Shown here: in pieces, positions 7,031 to 61,890 of the stretch
How positions within the stretch are numbered: the first letter of the stretch is position 1
Layout of the letters: each line of letters starts with the position of its first letter
Translations under genes and position numbers: made by a program
Notes under the pieces: generated by a model
Databases searched by the model: none
The model's input: the letters and a program-made list of their open reading frames with translations, nothing else
Told to the model about the DNA's origin: nothing
DNA from: Tubulanus polymorphus
Lineage: Eukaryota; Nemertea; Palaeonemertea; Tubulaniformes; Tubulanidae
DNA length: 64,000 bases
Assembly: GCF_964204645.1 (NCBI RefSeq)
Contig: NC_134026.1
Location: 2,046,001-2,110,000, forward strand
Reading direction: 5' to 3'

Positions 7031-8814
7031 TATTCATGTATATCAATGCCTGAAATAAATGTTACCAAATGTGACTGTCTTGTGTGCGAATGCATATTTC
7101 TTGAAATGCAGATTGTAAGAACAATCATTATGCTTGGCCTTGTAAAGGACATATGACTCGGAGTCCAGGGCTATACTGAATTTAGAAGCCATATCTGCTT
7201 TTGGGTATACTAATTCCAAACGCAATTATCAAAATATATAATTCATGTAACTTTTCTTCTAAATCAAAATGATAGATTCCGTACTATTAAATCTATGAGA
7301 ATATTTTTCATCCGAGTAAGAAAGCTATATGTCCTTGGTCGCGAATCCAGATCTCCAAATGATATCGCAATTAGATTTTATACGAAATATATCCTCAAAT
7401 AATAGATATTATGTATATAACTTACTATATGAATATTTACATTATTCCTACATATACCAGTATATTTCTCGAATCAGCTGCTACTGGCACAGATACGTGG
7501 TGTTCTATGGTGCAAAGAGCACTGTTAATAGCGCTGTTGTAAATGAACACATTTCCTAGAATATATCGTTCTGGGTCGAATGTTGACGCGATAAATTTCT
7601 AGGATTTCGTAATGGCATACTTGCATAATTACTAGAAATATCACGTTTAGATTTGGGATTTTACCTTGCAGTTATTATCTTAATTATCAAGATAATAACT
7701 CCAAGGGATTACTTAGTGAATTTCTTTGTAGAAGTGTTGCAAGCAGTTTTGTTTTGCAGTCTTATGCACCTATAAATCCTTAGTTGTTGTTTGCGCCTAA
7801 TGCATGTGATTGAAGTCTGAAAGCAGTAAACAGCTTTTCTCGTCCTTGACACAAATGAAATTGTGCAATTCTGTTTGTTATGCAGCGATGAAAGCAGTTT
7901 TGTTAAGTGCACAGATCACATTGGATCAGGACAAAGAAAAAATACAAAATATTCAGATGCGGCAGAGTGGCGGATCCAGGGTGAGGCAATCAAAAACTCT
8001 TGACCTTCAGAACAAATTTAAAACGACTTCAAAAACTTGTGAAATATCCCATGACGCAAAATCATAACGAAATATATGTATATCTAAAATATAAATTTAT
8101 TAATGCGACATGTTCGCTATACATATAAATAAACATTTATTAACATCATTGTATAATTCTATTATTGATAAATTAATATTGACGGATTTTTTGTTTATAG
8201 TTTATTTTCACCATCAGATATTTTCACGAACCACATTTATACGCCCATCTGCGAGATTATAAAACCTACCAGCAACGATTAGATAACTATCTATAATCTT
8301 CTCTAACTAGCATCTAGGATTAAGGCAAAGAAATAATTCTAAGGTAAAAAACAGAACCCTTTCAGCGCGCTATGCAGGATAATATAGCTAAACAAGATGT
8401 CTGCTAATAATGTAGAAGAAATTCTGTTCAAAAGAGGTTTCATTCATGTCAAGTGCAAGCGTCTAGCTGAAGAAAATAAAGGTATCGTACTCTTCTATTC
8501 AGGCTCAACAACGAACTTCATTTCACATGCAATGAACTGGGAACCAAAACAATTTCTTTCATATCTAACTTTTAAACATTTTTCTTTTTCCAAAATTTCA
8601 ACACACGATGAAACTTGATGATTTTTCTTTGGACTGTATACAATTCGTTTTTCGTAAGTAAAGCTACGACGGTACTCAGAGAACAGATCTACAAATATAT
8701 TTTCAACTCTGCTCCTACTTATTGTTCATAAGTGATAACAAATATCTTCGAAGATACTGACATGAACAAAGTTGTGGCAATTCGAGCAACTTTCACTTTT
8801 ACAGCTTCATTTTC
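7031..8814. other. Spacer between the transporter 5' end and the MKS1 3' end
   Basis: No supported gene. It should contain the transporter's upstream exon and promoter and the 3' UTR of MKS1. It also holds a perfect 12-bp inverted repeat (7670-7700) and AT-rich sequence around 8080-8200 with several minus-strand AATAAA motifs that could serve MKS1. A plus-strand frame starting with ATG at 8397 looks weakly protein-like but has no acceptable partner exon. Confidence 0.45.
7670..7700. repeat. Perfect 12-bp inverted repeat with 7-nt loop
   Basis: AGTTATTATCTT at 7670-7681 is matched exactly by its reverse complement at 7689-7700 around a 7-base loop. The arms are AT-rich. It may be a hairpin, a small MITE relic or chance in AT-rich DNA. 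Confidence 0.6.
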
Positions 8815-51939: not shown

Positions 51940-54900
51940 ATGAAAGGGGTCTTGTATATTATTACTCACTTGATAGGTTTCTTAGATAAAACAACGGATT
52001 TTAGTGAATGGGCCATAGGTAGCCTCATGTTTGAAAATATCTGGGCTCACATTTATCAGATCCATACATATCAACATATTAGAAATGGACGGCCGCATTC
52101 TGTATGCAATTTGTTTCCGGCTCTTGGTAAGTTTTCAAAAATCTGTAGTGTTGTGAAATGGCTAATTTCTTGTATTTACTTCAACATCGCAGAAGATCTT
52201 TCAGGTACTGAGCAAACATATTCTTCTTAATCTTCAACATATTCTTCTTAACCTTCAATCTTCTCGTGAACAAAATTGTCATGTTGGGTCCCTCGAGACC
52301 TGTACCAATCGTACGTACCATGTTTATGTAACTGGAGAACTAAGAGAAGAAGCAAATATTTCTAGCCTATGAATGCTATGAGTTCCAAAAGATAAACAAA
52401 TGTGAAAAGATTTTTTTTCATTGATATGATCGGTCACACCACAATTAATCGTAATTTGCAAAATTTGTAAAGAGAAAAAAAAATGAAAGTGTGTTAACAT
52501 TTTCTTTTATAGATTTTAGAACTTGTTCTATATCATAGTATATTCTTGAAAATATTTTGCAATGTGAGGGCCAGCATACGTATTTAGCTGATTAAGTACA
52601 CTGATATCGGGACATATCCCATGCTCGAAAATCTTTCTGTCTACGATAAGCTTATGTCAATGAGCGCGGTGAACTACACTCACTCCCGCACCACGAAAAC
52701 ATATATCTTTTCCTACAGTAATATGATTAATTTGTAACTTTTACAGTTTCAATCTCACGTCTTGACGGCTTATAACTTAACGGGTAAGGTAAACTCCACC
52801 AGGCTCTCACGACGATTCGATACAAGTATAAAAAACACGATATAGGCCTAGAAAAGTCTTCCATTAATGTTCTTCATTAGATATATACCGGTAGTTGAAT
52901 CGTGTGGCAGCTTGTTTTATTTTTTCCAGAGCTCGGGCAATGTCCTCCATTGAATGATAAATGGCCGAATGTAGTGATTACGTATTCAAAAGTCGATGCC
53001 TCTCCGAACGGAACAGTTACTGCGCCAACGTCAAACTTTTACGATCACACGAGTACGTCTATATATCACACAACAGTAACCCCGAGAAACCGCTCAGGAA
53101 ATGGCAGTAAGAATAATGGAGGATTTTCAAAGGAGGATTTTTGGAATTCAACTGACTACCCCGTCTCTCCGAAAAACAAAACTGAACACTACCTAACTCC
53201 AGGGGAATTGCGACCAGATCCATTTGGTGAGGCTCAAGGCGCCGTTCTTTCTGCAACATTACCGTCGCGCAAAAACGAAATATCACAAAGCGTCACAACA
53301 AACATCCCGACATTTTCAAATCACGATGGAAGGGTAATAACAGTTAGTAATCCTCCTAATAAAGGAACTGAAAAGTTCGCGCTAATGAATGACGTAAATC
53401 ATCATTCAACAACAGTAAAACCTTTCAAATCAAATCAAACAAGTAACTGGAAAAATAGAACAACAATTGATAGCAAGAACGTGGAAGACGATAAAAGGGG
53501 AAGAGGTAAACAGAGAAAATGGGCTGAAAGAAACCAAACATCCAGTGAACAGATGCTGAGAAAGAAGAGATCGGTAAAAAATGAAAAGAACAGAGGACGA
53601 AATGACACTATTCAGTTGACTATACAAAAATCTGCTTCTGTTTCATCAACTAAGATGTCAAAATCCCCAGCACTTGATGATAATCGTGTAATCAAAGCGA
53701 TAATCAAATGCAACGACAAGTTTTCATTCAGTGATGGAAGCCTCGTAAAAGAAATATATTGTAATAATGGGAGCTGGAGCGAATCATTTATACCTGGTTG
53801 CGTTATCAGTAAGTTGCAACTTCAATCTGAAATCACCAATAAGTTTACATTTTGTAAAACGTCTTGTAAAACTCACCTTTTGCGTATTTTGTTGTTTTAC
53901 AGAATTAGGCAAACGATGCCCCGATCTACCAGACGATCCGAATGGATTTATCGAGGAAGAACAATTCGCAGTCGAAGGCTGGACGGCAGGGGACACAGTT
54001 TCACTGAAGTGTAACAACGACTCCGTATTTTCTACAGATCCTACCGAGACGAAGATCATAAAGTGTCTACAAAGCGGAAGATGGAACATGGCTCGGCCGA
54101 TGTGCGAAGGCGCTAGTAAAATAATTGAAGGTTGAAGATTTTATACAAACTATACGTAGACTTGATAAAAATAATTACCCATACTTATATACAATAGTAC
54201 TTAAAAGTGAATGTTTTGTGTATAATTGATTATTAATCTCTTATATTACACATCCTTCCAGCGTCAAGTATGCAGTGTCCTCCATTGAGTGGTGATTGGC
54301 CGAACGTAGATATTTCATTGATAAAAAGTAGTCCAGATGACACGCTGCCGCATAGGAATAAAGATCCGTGGATTAAAGCCGCATTAAATGATTCTGCAAA
54401 TAACGGTATTAAAAATAAATCTAAGAAAAGTGATACAATAGATAAAACGGGATATACTATAAACAAGAACACTTCGAGAATACAGCCAACCCAAATATCT
54501 ACTATTTCAGAAACCTCGATAAGTATTTCAACACCCTTAAATCCAGGAATGGTTACTGAGAATTCAAAAGTTACTAATCATCTGGGTAAAGAAAACGAAA
54601 AAGATCATAAAGGTAAACCGATACACAATTCAAAAGAATCTGTCGAAGGGTCCACCAAAGATCATCGAACAGGAGCCGAGTCTATTCTAAATTCGATTGA
54701 AAGAGGTTTGCAAGACCATCGTAGAAAGAAGAGATCGACAAATACTGCTGTAGACATGACGAATTCTACTGCAGATACGAAAAGTAAGACGACTGGAAGA
54801 AATGCCATCTTTTTAGAACCAAGAATACGCAACATCTCGGCATTAAATCGCGTTAAAGCTATATACAAATGCCACGACGAATTTTCTTTTATCGATGGTA

Positions 54901-57075
54901 GCATCTCTAAAGAGATATTCTGTAATAATGGAAGTTGGAGCGAAATATTTGTCCCCGAATGCGTCCGTAAGTTGATACTTCTTTATTTCAAGAAAAATAC
55001 AGTAATGTTTTTTGTTCACTATCGTTTCTTTGGTGCGGGTGCTACAGCTTCACAGCGGAGTTTGTTGTTTGATCGATATTAGATATCTCGAATAACGTCT
55101 ACAGGTCGAAGATGCCCAAGTCTGCCCGAAGATCCGAATGGTTTCACCATCAAAAGAGATCATATAGATAAAGGTTGGAGAGAAGGAGATACGGTAAAAG
55201 TCGCTTGTAAGTTGAATTCAGAATTTCCGAATGCGACGAATCGTACGAAAGAAATAGTCATGCGGTGTCTAAAAGGCGGAAATTGGGACAAAAAACGGCC
55301 AATTTGTAAAGGTACAAATTTCAATTCAAATTCATTGATTTTGCGTTAAGAAATGGAAAATTTTGTTTTGCGTTACCTAATTATTCTAGTTACAATGTGC
55401 CCAGAAGCTCCGCCCATAAAGAATGCCAGAAATAATGAATACAGAAAGGCGGGTGGACGCAGTTATTACAAGTGTAAACACGGCTATCGATTCAGCGATA
55501 TGAAAACTACTAAAGCTATTTCCTGCGGTCATAATGGAAAATGGGCGAAAAACATAACTGATTACTGTCGGCGTAAGTTAAGTAATTTTCATGATGCTTT
55601 GGCGAAACGATTTAATGTATATTTTAGATCTTACGATTTGTCGTTTGCTGCATGGGAATGCTATTACTTGAATATACAACTTCATTTACGTTTTGTTGAT
55701 GATGATATGTTGAGATATTCTATCCAAATTCTACAGTGTCCCGATGTCCCGCTTTCAAAAGACCAGTTAGTGCACGTTGTAGTGGAAAGGATCCGTCTCC
55801 TACACCTCCAGTAATCGAAACGTGTTCGTGTGGACCGAATAGATGGTTTGTAACAAAAGAATTACTAGTTTATCTTTATTGCGATAACTATGGACATTGG
55901 AACACTTCATTGCCGGGAGGCTGCGAAGGTAACATATTTATACAGCCGAACTTCTCTAACTTGTCATCAGATAAGGTATCACATTCTTAAGTCGTCGATA
56001 GTAGTTCCCCCTATGACCATTTAACCCAGTTTGAATGTATATAAACAAACGAATGTACGATGAAGAATCACAGAAACTTGACTTCTTCCCGCGCATTGAT
56101 TGAAATTCTAACAATTTCACCTACTCGCTTAATGAAACATCAGATTGCTATTTCCCTTACAGACATTTCATGCCCTCCTCCAAGAAATATTACCGGTACC
56201 ACATTCACGAACATTATACCAGGCAGAGATAGTTATCCGGTTAACTGGACTGCCGAATACGTATGCCCTGCAGGTCACGTGTTTCCGGGTGGAGGTGAAC
56301 GAACATGGGCTATTTGTTCACTTTATTATCCTGGCCGATGGAGCACTGGGAATTTCTACCTGAATCAATCTTGTGTTCGTAAGTATCAAAATAGATATGG
56401 TTCAATAATATGCCATTTGCTAATATAACGAACGCTTTGTCATAGCATGTCATTTTTCGATATTTTGCGCATTTCTAGAGGTTACATTTTTTTTGGTTAC
56501 ATTTTGATTAAAGCTAAAGTTTGCCCAAGCGTAGATGAAATACTTGAGCGTAAACGCAAATTATTGAACAAAACTATTCTCGACTCGCGATTACCAAAAC
56601 TGACGCCACTGGACGACACTTTTGAATTCAGAAGTCGTTTGATGGTTGAATGTGTAGATGATGGATTCTCGCTGCCAGACGACACCAGACAACGTGTTGT
56701 TCAATGTGGGTCGGATGCCAACTGGAAACCGAATGTCGCACTTTGCATCGGTAGGATATCCGTGACACCGAGTGAGCAGTTTATCATTTTCATCATTTCG
56801 TGTTGAATTATAAAATCACCATTCATCTTTCAGAAAATGCCATCGTGATAAGAAAGTATAAACATGAACCTGTAGAAGCCGAACTAGCGGCAGCCATCGG
56901 AACAGTTGCCATTATCATAATAGTCGCTATATTGATGAGTATAATCGCATTAGACGCCAGCAATTTGATGAAAAGTTATCGTTTACTGTGCTACAATCTA
57001 CGACATGCCGGAAAAAAGAATAAAACTCGTCCGATTAAACTGTCAGAGGAAATCCAATTAGAAGAAATCGCTTAA
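51940..57075 (+). CDS. Single-pass membrane protein with about eight CCP/sushi modules, two of them split by long inserts (about 1086 aa)
   Basis: Exons: 51940-52126 (uncertain first exon), 52930-53808, 53903-54115, 54262-54966, 55105-55311, 55390-55572, 55737-55928, 56163-56378, 56514-56750, 56834-57075. Every intron is phase 1, as in shuffled CCP genes. Each middle exon encodes one module (four Cys plus a Trp before Cys4). Exons 2 and 4 start with CPPLxxxWPNV, then have 256 and 198 residues of Ser/Thr/Asn-rich insert before Cys2 (IKCNDKFSF / YKCHDEFSF). Each insert carries a furin-like site (RKKR at 53559-53570, RRKKR at 54720-54734). Exons 3 and 5 are a second, ordinary module type (RCP.LP.DPNGF). 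Exons 2-3 and 4-5 thus look like a tandem duplication. The last exon has a membrane helix (AAAIGTVAIIIIVAILMSII) and a basic tail of about 45 residues. CCP proteins usually act in complement control, adhesion or synapse organisation; I know no family with this architecture. Confidence 0.85.
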
Positions 57076-57172: not shown

Positions 57173-57381
57173 CACTGTGCTCAGTTTACCGGAGTTGGAC
57201 ATTGATCAATAACTTTATCAGATTATGAATATTTGATGGTTCGATAATAATTATTCGTTTCATGTTATTGTAATTTACAAATGTAAAATGAGTCAGTTCT
57301 CTTAGTAAAGCCCAGTGCGTGTGATTCTATGATGTAATGTAGTAAAAGTAGATTGATTAGTTGCTTGTAGAGTTTTGTACG

Positions 57382-59939
57382 TTAACAGTCCACCTGGCAT
57401 ATTATACCCAATCGAATGCTGCATCCGGTCTCGAAAAAATACGCATCCGAATGAGACAAATCGTCGCAAGGAATCGCTGCACATACGTGACTTCCCGTCC
57501 TCGACCCCGGGCACCACTTCAGACCCGTAGCTACCATACCTGTCTCTACCCAGCGCCATGCACTATTATTGTAGCCGAGGCCTATCCATGTTTTACCTGA
57601 AAAACAAGAACATGTATTGTTCATGCTAAAAATAGGATACCCTTGTTTCTCCTTCGGCGGGGCATGGAATAGCATTGCGGCCATATGAAAACTTCATTAA
57701 ATCGAAATTTCTACTTTTAAAGCTGAAATTTCCATATGGCCGCAATGTTCTTCCGTAGCTGGGTCATTTTGCAAACCGAAATACAATTTGTAATCAGTTC
57801 ATTTCGATAGCTGCCGGGTCTGTAATGGTTAGCTTGATCATGATTTAAAAAAAAAGTAATGTACAATGTAGATAGGCGGCCGACCGGGTCAACTTTTAAG
57901 CTCAGCAGAAAGAGAAAAGGTATCAATTATTTGCCTTAGCGCCTTCAATGTTCTGTCTGCGAGATACGCTAGTTCGTTTGGTCATCGTTACATTTACTAT
58001 TACAGAAATCATCATGTTAGCGTCTTATCTTCCTGCAGAATTCATTCTGTGTTTAAGTGGCAATCAAATACGTATAAGGTGACCCTATATTGCTTCAATT
58101 GCTCAGTAAATTAATTGATAAGTTTAAGGTGAAATCACTATGAAATCAATGTACGGCTGAGATTTTTTACAAATTATGATTATTCGCCCAAATTCGTTCA
58201 GAGTCGGATTTGTTCCCACCAATTACATTAAACCTTTTGATATGGAATATTGTGAAATGAATGTTGTTATCCAAAATCTCAATTTTTGTTATCTTTGTTG
58301 CTTGGTTTTTATTTGATATTTTAACTATTTATCATATATATAACGATTGGCCGAGAGGAACCAACCGTTCAATCATTCTCCACACTCAGTTTACTTACCC
58401 GATCCTTCGTCTACGATTTTCTGTTTTAAAGCATTGATTTCAGCATTAGTTCTCGGTTCGGCGAGAATTCCTCCTAAGTCGTTGCAGCGACCAACTGCAT
58501 CTTTCCAAGTCAGACGATACCGACTCACGAAATAATAACATTTGTCATTGACCCCGGTGTATTTTTGATATCCTATATTTTCTGGTTTATGGTGATCAGC
58601 TGAAATAGAAAATAATTGTGAAATTTCCACAATTAATTCGACATTTCCGAAAAGAATTTCCTTTAATATGGTTCAATATAGTAATGAGTGACGACGGCAT
58701 AACTAGAATTTTCCCAATTGTGTACTTCGATTTAAACAAAAAATTCTATTAACTCGACCGCCGATTACACAACTATATCTGTACTTCGATTGCCGATTTC
58801 ATAAATCAAACCACCTGTTTCGTTCCTGGCAGGGGTGGTGGATCTGTAAGGGATATCAAATCAAAAAATCAAACGAAATCTACCAATCAAATAAATAACA
58901 GGGTCAATCCCTATTTCAAGATCAAAATTCTCAATTATCATATTCATGTGCACTCAAATCTGTGAACATACGAACTAAACATCATTCCACCCACTGTTTC
59001 ATTGAAAAGTGTAGTTTCCCTTTGCTACTATTACATAACTGTCTCAAATATTTACTACCAAATATCTGCTTTGCACAGAATAACCAAAAATTTACCTACG
59101 TATATGGCGAAACTAGAGATTGCGCATGATTGCTCGCTGGAGGAATTATTTGATCTCATCGACTATAATTTTTACATGTTCCAAATCGAATAAATCCTAA
59201 TTGTCGCCATTAGTTATCGGTATTTGATAAATCACCCGGTATGAAGTATCGGTTCGCAATGTCTCCAATAGCGATCGGTCGATGATATGGAAATTACGGT
59301 TTCAATCAATCACTTCTCAATGTATTCAATCTAATAATTTCACATCTCATTTTCACACAGTGTATTCAAATTCAAAAAATAAATGATGGAAAATCCAGCC
59401 AGAGAACAGGGTTTATCATTCCGTTTTAAATTGGGGTTAAATGTGATTGTAGAGTTTTTTCCGTTCGAAAATGCTTAGTACCAAGAAGTTTCGGACGAAG
59501 AGTTTTTGAAGGGATTTATTCAATATATCCGTGATAAAAATCACATATTAAAAGAAATAAAGAAGATGTATATGAAATATTGAATTAATTCAAATTACGC
59601 ACCTCTGACAAAGACATTCATATCTTCGCGAACAAACGCTTGATTGCTTAATTTCAATCTGGCAGAATCCAAAAGAGCACATTGTATATCAGGGTCAAAC
59701 CACTCAGTACCATAGACGAAACCAACGCAAACAGTCGGGAAATCATACAGACAGCTTCTAGCACATTCTAAACGACCGATGTTCGGTATATATCGAAGTA
59801 TATCCGCATTCGATGACCATTTGATTTTAGTCCGCTTTAAAGCCAAATTGAATACGAAATCTGACGTATATGAAATATCCAGTTCACAAAACAAAATAAG
59901 ACACCACAAAATCAACTGTGAAAAGTTGGAAAACTTCAT
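57382..59939 (-). CDS. Secreted PAN/apple + C-type-lectin-domain protein (250 aa)
   Basis: Three coding exons (minus): 59603-59939, 58399-58599, 57382-57596. Both introns are phase 1 and the frame closes to 250 residues. Residues 1 to about 25 are a signal peptide (MKFSNFSQLILWCLILFCEL). Then comes a PAN/apple-like segment (ECARSCLYDFPTVCVGFVYG … IQCALLDSA). The C-type lectin fold follows: KCYYFVSRYRLTWKDAVGRC, LGGILAEPRTNAEINALK, WIGLGYNNSAWRWVETG, then CSIRLGIICQVDC at the end. The WIGL core and the conserved Cys pairs are present. The EPN or QPD sugar-specificity triplet and the WND calcium motif are missing, so calcium-dependent sugar binding is doubtful. Such PAN-CTLD proteins are common in lophotrochozoan immune and mucus secretomes. 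An in-frame ATG 63 nt upstream exists, but the chosen start gives a proper signal peptide. Confidence 0.87.
57673..57747. repeat. Perfect 15-bp inverted repeat in a lectin-gene intron
   Basis: CATTGCGGCCATATG (57673-57687) and its exact reverse complement (57733-57747) flank a 45-nt spacer. The arms extend imperfectly outward and inward. It is intronic in the lectin gene and GC-richer than its surroundings. Confidence 0.8.
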
Positions 59940-61890
59940 GGTGTCTGTCGTTTGGCACACCTTGATGTTGAATATTAGAACTACGCGTTTAAAAAACTGC
60001 ATGGGATTACAGATCTATCCAATTAAATTAGATCTATTTTGATCGGACCATATCGCGACATATCGAACACAGCGTCAGGTAATTAACACGAATGTTAGTG
60101 AGTTCACCGCGCAAAGTCATGGTCGCTATCCGTAAGAGTAACTGTGCAAGAGCCGCCGGGTAATGTCACCGGGGAGCAAGATAGAAAAATCACTTTAGAT
60201 AGAAACTAATTTATGAACGTGCTGTGAACGGGCAAACACACTACTAATTAGCCATGAAGAAACGCATTATTGTCGGCTAGAAATATTGACTTAACCCCAC
60301 AATTTTAAGTGTAATTCGTGAGGCCACCAGCCACATGAAACCACGGAGATATGTCCATACAGGCTGATGTTATCGATAAACTCATTTCATCACGTTTACG
60401 GTTGTCATTAAGATTAGGTGCGATTCATGTGGACGCGGTAAAATATGACGTTATACTGTGAGGGAAATATAGAGTGAACTACTTCTCCAAAATCTAATAG
60501 ATTTATAGAAAAAAAAAACCGGAAAATGTCTGGCGATATACACAGAATTACCATTTAGTATTCACATCGACATGAATGACACATTGATATATTGGTATTA
60601 CGTAATTCAATTTTCTCTGATATATCGTAATCAGAAAGAACTGGTGGTTTTAAAAAATAGGCTTACGTACAATTATCTACGAAACTGGCTTCGTCAGTAT
60701 TTTTAACTCTTTTCCATAGACGCTGATAAAAAATCAGGTTATTTTTTTAAATCAACGAATCTATCATTTTTTAACGCGCAGCTATGCACTCTTCGACTAA
60801 TCAGGCAGCCGTGTGTCGTGCCGAGTTTCGCGATGTCATCAGGTTCGAATCCCTGTCGATGGAGGACGAAGCGGCGTATTTTTCTACCCCTATTATCGAA
60901 ACGACTATTAGACAATTACGTAATTCTACTTCTTTTTCTGAATGGATTGTGTAAAGGTTATCACGTTTATGTTATCTAATGGTGTAATAGATAAATAGAT
61001 TTGAAGTGCAGAATATTACCAAATCCGGCGAACATTTCGTTTCGTGGATATTTTTGAGTCGTAATCTACGAGGATGAGTGTATACTGATGTCGTTCTGAT
61101 TGACGCTACCAGTGCAGGTATACAGCCAGAGCGGTCGTTTAGTGGAGATTTATCGACTTGGGGCGGTGATTTCCGGGCTTTCAATTCGATCGTTTTGAGG
61201 AAAATGCGACAATCAAACCCAATCTCAGATTCCGGGTACACCCAATATGTACCAATTATCCTCGCAAGACAAACAGGAAGAACATCATTTCATTTAATTG
61301 CGCATCACTCTAGCTTTAGATTAATTGCAGCTCGCTTTCTATTAGTAAGTAATTGAGGAGTCGAATGTAATAGAATCTGCGCCTGTCTTCGTGAGGAATA
61401 ATTGCCTTCGTTTACCGCAGTCGATTCTTTCAAATACCGCAGAACAATCGCGAAGTTTCCTATTACCCGTTAAAGATCTGAAATTATTTGAACATCAATT
61501 CGATTTAGATAACGAGGCTAGTAGCATATTGATGGAAAATGAGAAAAAAAGGCCACATATCGGCGCGAAGGCTTACGAGCAAAAAAATAATTAGTGTAGT
61601 TTTTTTGCCAAAGAAGTACCCGAAATGAACCGCAGTGCTCGCGCGTAGAAAAAAGCGTCGAATGCATTGATGTTGCCACTTTGCTAACGCCGGATGTGGG
61701 CGACTAGATCTATTTGATGTAGTTTATCACGAAGGATACGGAATAATCACTCAGGATTCATACGCTGAGCTTTAATGAGAAATAACGTTGGATAGCGCTT
61801 CAAAAGGTCACGGAGTGATTTGTTGCTTTGCTGCAAATCATTATTTCTGTAAATTGAGTTTTACATCTAATTCATTTATCTAAGATCTCC

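Follow-up and report, generated by a model that had tools for sequence, protein, structure and literature searches.

Two CCP modules split by long coding inserts with conserved furin-type sites in a predicted receptor gene of Tubulanus polymorphus

Our analysis of a 64,000-nucleotide stretch of the Tubulanus polymorphus genome (NC_134026.1, positions 2,046,001 to 2,110,000; hereafter the window) gave a ten-exon gene model on the + strand at 51.9-57.1 kb, in which the introns are phase 1 throughout and exon 1 is tentative. The predicted product is a type I membrane protein whose eight CCP/Sushi-type exons precede a transmembrane segment and a short tail. Exons 2 to 9 encode one CCP-type module each; in all eight, the dipeptide CP lies 2-4 residues after the exon start, and the exon (phase 1-1) ends at the last Cys or just past it. 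The candidate exon 1 (51940-52126) lies downstream of a NOP58-like gene, whose end is at about 50990, and has a start Met, a weak signal peptide (MKGVLYIITHLIGFL...) and a phase-1 donor, TTG|GTAAGT. No other upstream ATG frame combines a hydrophobic N-terminus with a passable phase-1 donor, and the exon and its signal peptide are uncertain.

Exon 2 (52930-53808) and exon 4 (54262-54966) encode the two unusual modules, which we call split modules A and B and which were assigned from the exon model, the Cys spacing and the profile scores of their C-terminal halves. The remaining modules were scored with the Pfam Sushi profile (cut-off 20.7 bits), which was passed by exon 3 (CCP 2, intact; 53903-54115; 23.7 bits), exon 6 (CCP 5; 55390-55572; 26.9 bits) and exon 8 (CCP 7; 56163-56378; 21.3 bits), and narrowly missed by exon 5 (CCP 4, intact; 55105-55311; 19.1 bits) and exon 9 (CCP 8; 56514-56750; 20.0 bits). 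Exon 5 is a paralogue of exon 3 (42% identity). We also built a Sushi HMM from 45 modules of this genome, with 600 shuffles as a control (best shuffle, 9.0 bits). Exon 7 (55737-55928), placed by the exon model, encodes a degenerate CCP-like module with six Cys, which had no Pfam hit and scored 7.8 bits with the own-genome HMM, under the best shuffle. Exon 10 (56834-57075) encodes the transmembrane segment, a tail of about 40 residues and the stop codon, and is supported by the exon model and by related tails elsewhere in the genome (see below); the gene model includes no kinase.

A first-pass annotation of this DNA had placed Cys1 and Cys2 of the two split modules 256 and 198 positions apart, and its coordinates match the boundaries of exons 2-3 and 4-5 exactly. 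The distances were reproduced, corresponding to 255 and 197 residues between the two Cys. In 45 intact CCPs of this genome, which were picked by a regular expression allowing a gap of 22-50, the Cys1-Cys2 gap is 22-40 residues, and a scan for gaps of 80-400 across all loci examined returned exons 2 and 4 only. Both modules thus exceed the usual compact CCP size of about 60 residues, in which the gap is a few tens. Otherwise their spacing is ordinary, with 16 residues between Cys2 and Cys3 and 12 between Cys3 and Cys4 (13-18 and 11-19 in intact modules). Each has four Cys, the NGSWSE motif and a Trp between Cys3 and Cys4. Note that the closing motif FCNNGSWSE, previously given for both, is right for exon 4, whereas exon 2 has YCNNGSWSE. 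We class exons 2 and 4 as CCP-derived split modules, in which the unusual Cys1-Cys2 gap is what is new.

The bodies of the inserts span 52974-53661 (insert A, rich in Ser, Thr, Asn and Lys and predicted to be disordered) and 54309-54834 (insert B), and neither contains Cys. Both are open throughout: insert A has no in-frame stop against 11.5 expected from its own dinucleotides, and none of 20000 Markov resamples was stop-free; insert B has none against 11.9 expected on the same basis, and 1 of 20000 resamples was stop-free (P = 5e-5). In the other two forward frames there are 11-22 stops. Read in the true frame, the inserts had codon scores similar to those of the accepted exons and far above those of intron controls, and this coding-like codon use was limited to the correct frame. 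The inserts are real coding sequence, and the stop-free frame together with the codon use rules out a retained intron comprising either insert as a whole. The earlier description of the inserts as having many sequons holds at a borderline level for insert A (9 against 5.2 expected, P = 0.046), but insert B shows no enrichment (4 against 3.8, P = 0.56). AF2 modelling of module B gave pLDDT values below 50 for most of the insert. The best reading is that the inserts are disordered, glycosylatable segments of about 175-235 residues that lie between Cys1 and Cys2, close to the hypervariable loop.

The C-terminal halves of modules A and B scored 15.4 and 17.5 bits with the own-genome Sushi HMM, and module B with the insert left out matched complement factor H (E = 9e-6) through its C half; judged by these scores, both are genuine CCP halves. 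Neither split exon reached the Pfam PF00084 cut-off, with or without the insert, and the N-terminal block (CPPLxxxWPNV) raises the CCP profile score by no more than about 1 bit. We assigned this block to the CCP because CP stands at the start of every CCP-type exon, each split exon has four Cys and the block itself is conserved. Since the CP start, the Cys end and the 1-1 phase recur in all eight exons, exons 2 and 4 each appear to be one four-Cys module, and we saw no sign that CPPL and the later Cys belong to separate modules, a possibility that the first-pass annotation had raised against its own proposal. The AF2 model of module B, computed from an alignment that included intact CCPs from the same gene, could be superposed on complete CCPs, with matches of 58-61 residues that bridge the insert and Z scores of up to 5.7, and the matched chains listed were CCP proteins. 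A control for module A with an alignment of the two split exons only gave a pLDDT of 34 and no CCP match; because this control without intact CCPs was unusable, the support from AF2 is conditional on the alignment.

Each insert contains a single R-X-[KR]-R site, RKKR|S, at 53559-53573 in insert A and 54723-54737 in insert B, and the motif scan found none in exons 3 and 5-10. The claim that RKKR|S lies toward the C-terminal end was borne out in both inserts: the site is 46 residues before Cys2 in A and 45 in B, a near-constant distance although the N-terminal side differs in length by 57 residues. In composition shuffles, a furin site in both inserts with Cys2 distances agreeing within 2 residues appeared in 85 of 400,000, and RKKRS in both inserts in 0 of 400,000. 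We consider the site probably functional, mainly because it is present at a matching distance in both copies and this is rare in shuffles. Each insert has such a site, and insert B, most of which was modelled at pLDDT below 50, fits an exposed convertase substrate. The 15 bases encoding RKKRS are identical in the two copies (AGAAAGAAGAGATCG). As a separate observation, the identity of all five codons is mildly unexpected when compared with 17 of 26 identical-residue codons in the C half, and synonymous sites outside the motif look strongly diverged. A genome-wide search with a degenerate RKKRS pattern was uninformative (1564 and 1511 matches on the two strands).

The exon pairs 2-3 and 4-5 share their order and motifs, in agreement with the earlier proposal of a tandem duplication. 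At the nucleotide level, exons 2 and 4 have only three conserved blocks, namely the CPPLxxxWPNV start (32/38 nt), RKKRS (15/15 nt) and the Cys2-Cys4 half (83/110 nt), and the remainder of the insert is unalignable. For the N and C halves together, dN was 0.16 and dS 1.29; the C half alone gave dN 0.17 and dS 2.9, and the N block alone dS 0.36, all dS values being rough at 12-66 codons per block. The intact partners, exons 3 and 5, gave dN 0.47 and dS 1.47, and protein identity is 73% for the split-module halves against 42% for these neighbouring CCPs. The retention of three blocks while the insert otherwise diverged, together with a dS of about 1.3 against a dN of 0.16, points to selection acting on the furin site as well as on the two halves of the module.

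With a probability of about 0.62, we interpret the product as a type I protein of the cell surface, a receptor or adhesion molecule, in which two CCPs carry disordered, furin-cleavable inserts, giving a cut, probably disulfide-tied ectodomain. The standard disulfides of a CCP are Cys1-Cys3 and Cys2-Cys4. Each split module would fold in the ER as one CCP with these bonds, and furin would then cut both inserts at RKKR|S in the Golgi. From the standard disulfide pattern and cleavage at both sites, three chains tied by two Cys1-Cys3 bonds would follow, and each upstream chain would end, at its C-terminus, in a long flexible tail made up of most of the insert. The complete scheme, in which furin cuts inside two CCPs to leave three disulfide-tied chains with exposed tails, as the design of a regulated or mechanically sensitive receptor, has in our estimate an even chance of being correct. 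A flexible, variable and glycosylatable tail would be compatible with ligand shielding or altered avidity.

Three other readings of the inserts were weighed. They may be disordered, glycosylated spacers in a CCP loop, in which RKKR is rarely or never cut and the receptor stays a single chain. The inserts are rich in Lys and Arg (36 of 233 residues in A, 30 of 175 in B), so that basic motifs are not very rare, and some R-X-[KR]-R appears in about 11% of insert A shuffles (43,649 of 400,000). However, an uncut spacer is unlikely, given that both copies have RKKRS at a matching distance from Cys2 within sequence that is otherwise unalignable, and that the motif scan returned no such site in exons 3 and 5-10. 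It is improbable that CPPLxxxWPNV and the Cys2-Cys4 half are different units, with Cys1 pairing elsewhere and cleavage freeing an N-terminal chain. The negligible contribution of the N block to the profile match and the failure of the AF2 control to fold are in line with such a separation, but it is at odds with the same CP start and Cys4 end in every CCP-type exon, and a module without Cys1 would be left with three Cys.

Very improbable is the case in which the inserts are wholly or partly spliced out and the main transcript encodes ordinary CCPs. Insert B does contain a single in-frame pair of donor and acceptor (AAG|GTAAAC ... CATCTTTTTAG; a 204-base intron at 54613-54816), the use of which would delete RKKRS, and the real donors of this gene also match the consensus weakly, so that partial splicing of insert B is possible. 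Against splicing as a general explanation are the stop-free frames, a codon use that is coding-like in no frame but the correct one and the lack of an in-frame donor/acceptor pair in insert A at the same threshold; moreover, with insert B shortened by 68 residues the gap would be about 129.

The insulin receptor has a comparable arrangement: a relatively disordered insert with a furin site lies in an extracellular beta-sandwich loop of FnIII-2, and the cut chains are disulfide-joined (PMC10573852). The receptor in the window likewise has a furin-site insert in an extracellular beta module, here known from sequence, but the host is a CCP instead of FnIII and there are two inserts instead of one. 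The insulin receptor insert contains Cys as well as a defined C-terminal segment (alphaCT), whereas the inserts described here are devoid of Cys and the tie would be the module's own Cys1-Cys3 bond. The comparison is an analogy only, as the insulin-receptor-like L1-CR-L2-FnIII arrangement and tyrosine kinase are absent from this CCP array. In the Notch heterodimerization domain, the S1 furin site is part of a loop of low conservation that can be cut or removed with the fold intact (PMC2726630); the Notch halves are held non-covalently, the loop is 47 residues (Notch1) and the fold is different, whereas a covalent tie is predicted for the CCPs described here. Among CCPs, D3 of Heligmosomoides TGM1 has a 23-residue insertion (PMC10516467) and factor H CCP13 a 3-residue insertion in the hypervariable loop (PMC2806952). 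These are about ten to sixty times shorter than the inserts in the window, and we found no mention of a protease site in either.

A limited search of the open-access literature returned no precedent for a furin-cut or large-insert CCP. The first-pass statement that no such family has been described therefore stands for the CCP within that search, but not for the cut-and-tied design, which is not new as such because the insulin receptor already has a furin-cut disordered insert and linked chains. CCP modules are usually treated as rigid 60-residue beads. If our reading is right, a CCP tolerating a 200-residue insert and a chain break would mean that two disulfides can hold the fold, and the cut-and-tied receptor design would extend beyond FnIII and similar folds. 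The two copies are old, and the selection indicated for their cut site offers a direct mutational test.

Protein searches with exon 4 and with the C half, and a search for CPPLxxxWPNV with one mismatch, revealed no third split module in this genome, although weak matches can be missed; the sole further match was weak (contig C5, E = 0.06). A partial Sushi match in a long frame at C2:2166034 was considered as a third copy and reads as an ordinary CCP. Relatives of the transmembrane segment and tail occur at C9:12076318, C9:12078364 and C1:28872331, in receptors of the CCP or lectin/CCP type. This segment, with its juxtamembrane tail, recurs in related form in four receptors on three contigs (L036:6315-6581 and 8340-8780, - strand; L046:2265-2765, + strand; window 56834-57075, + strand), and no Pfam family was assigned to it in the three of the four that were scanned. 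The receptor gene at C1:28863-28873 kb has, as in the window, a CCP array and the related transmembrane segment and tail; its CCPs number some twenty, and all those read there are compact, without a long insert, and the tail is longer. Overall, among the related receptors that we examined, the CCPs are ordinary except in one case, where the insert is of another kind.

That case is a CCP at C9:12081194-12081667 (L037:1194-1667, - strand), near a related transmembrane receptor; its mucin-like insert, rich in Thr and Pro, lies between Cys2 and Cys3, a loop different from that of the inserts in the window. This Thr-rich Cys2-Cys3 insert suggests that insertion into a CCP loop happened at least once more among the related receptors. 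A short way downstream of the receptor gene (window 57302-60014, - strand) are exons of likely C-type lectin and PAN/apple-like type, and about 53 kb past the window there is a gene (L011) that combines CCP, kringle-like and lectin exons. The proximity of these lectin, PAN/apple-like and CCP/kringle-like exons suggests a cluster of recognition genes.
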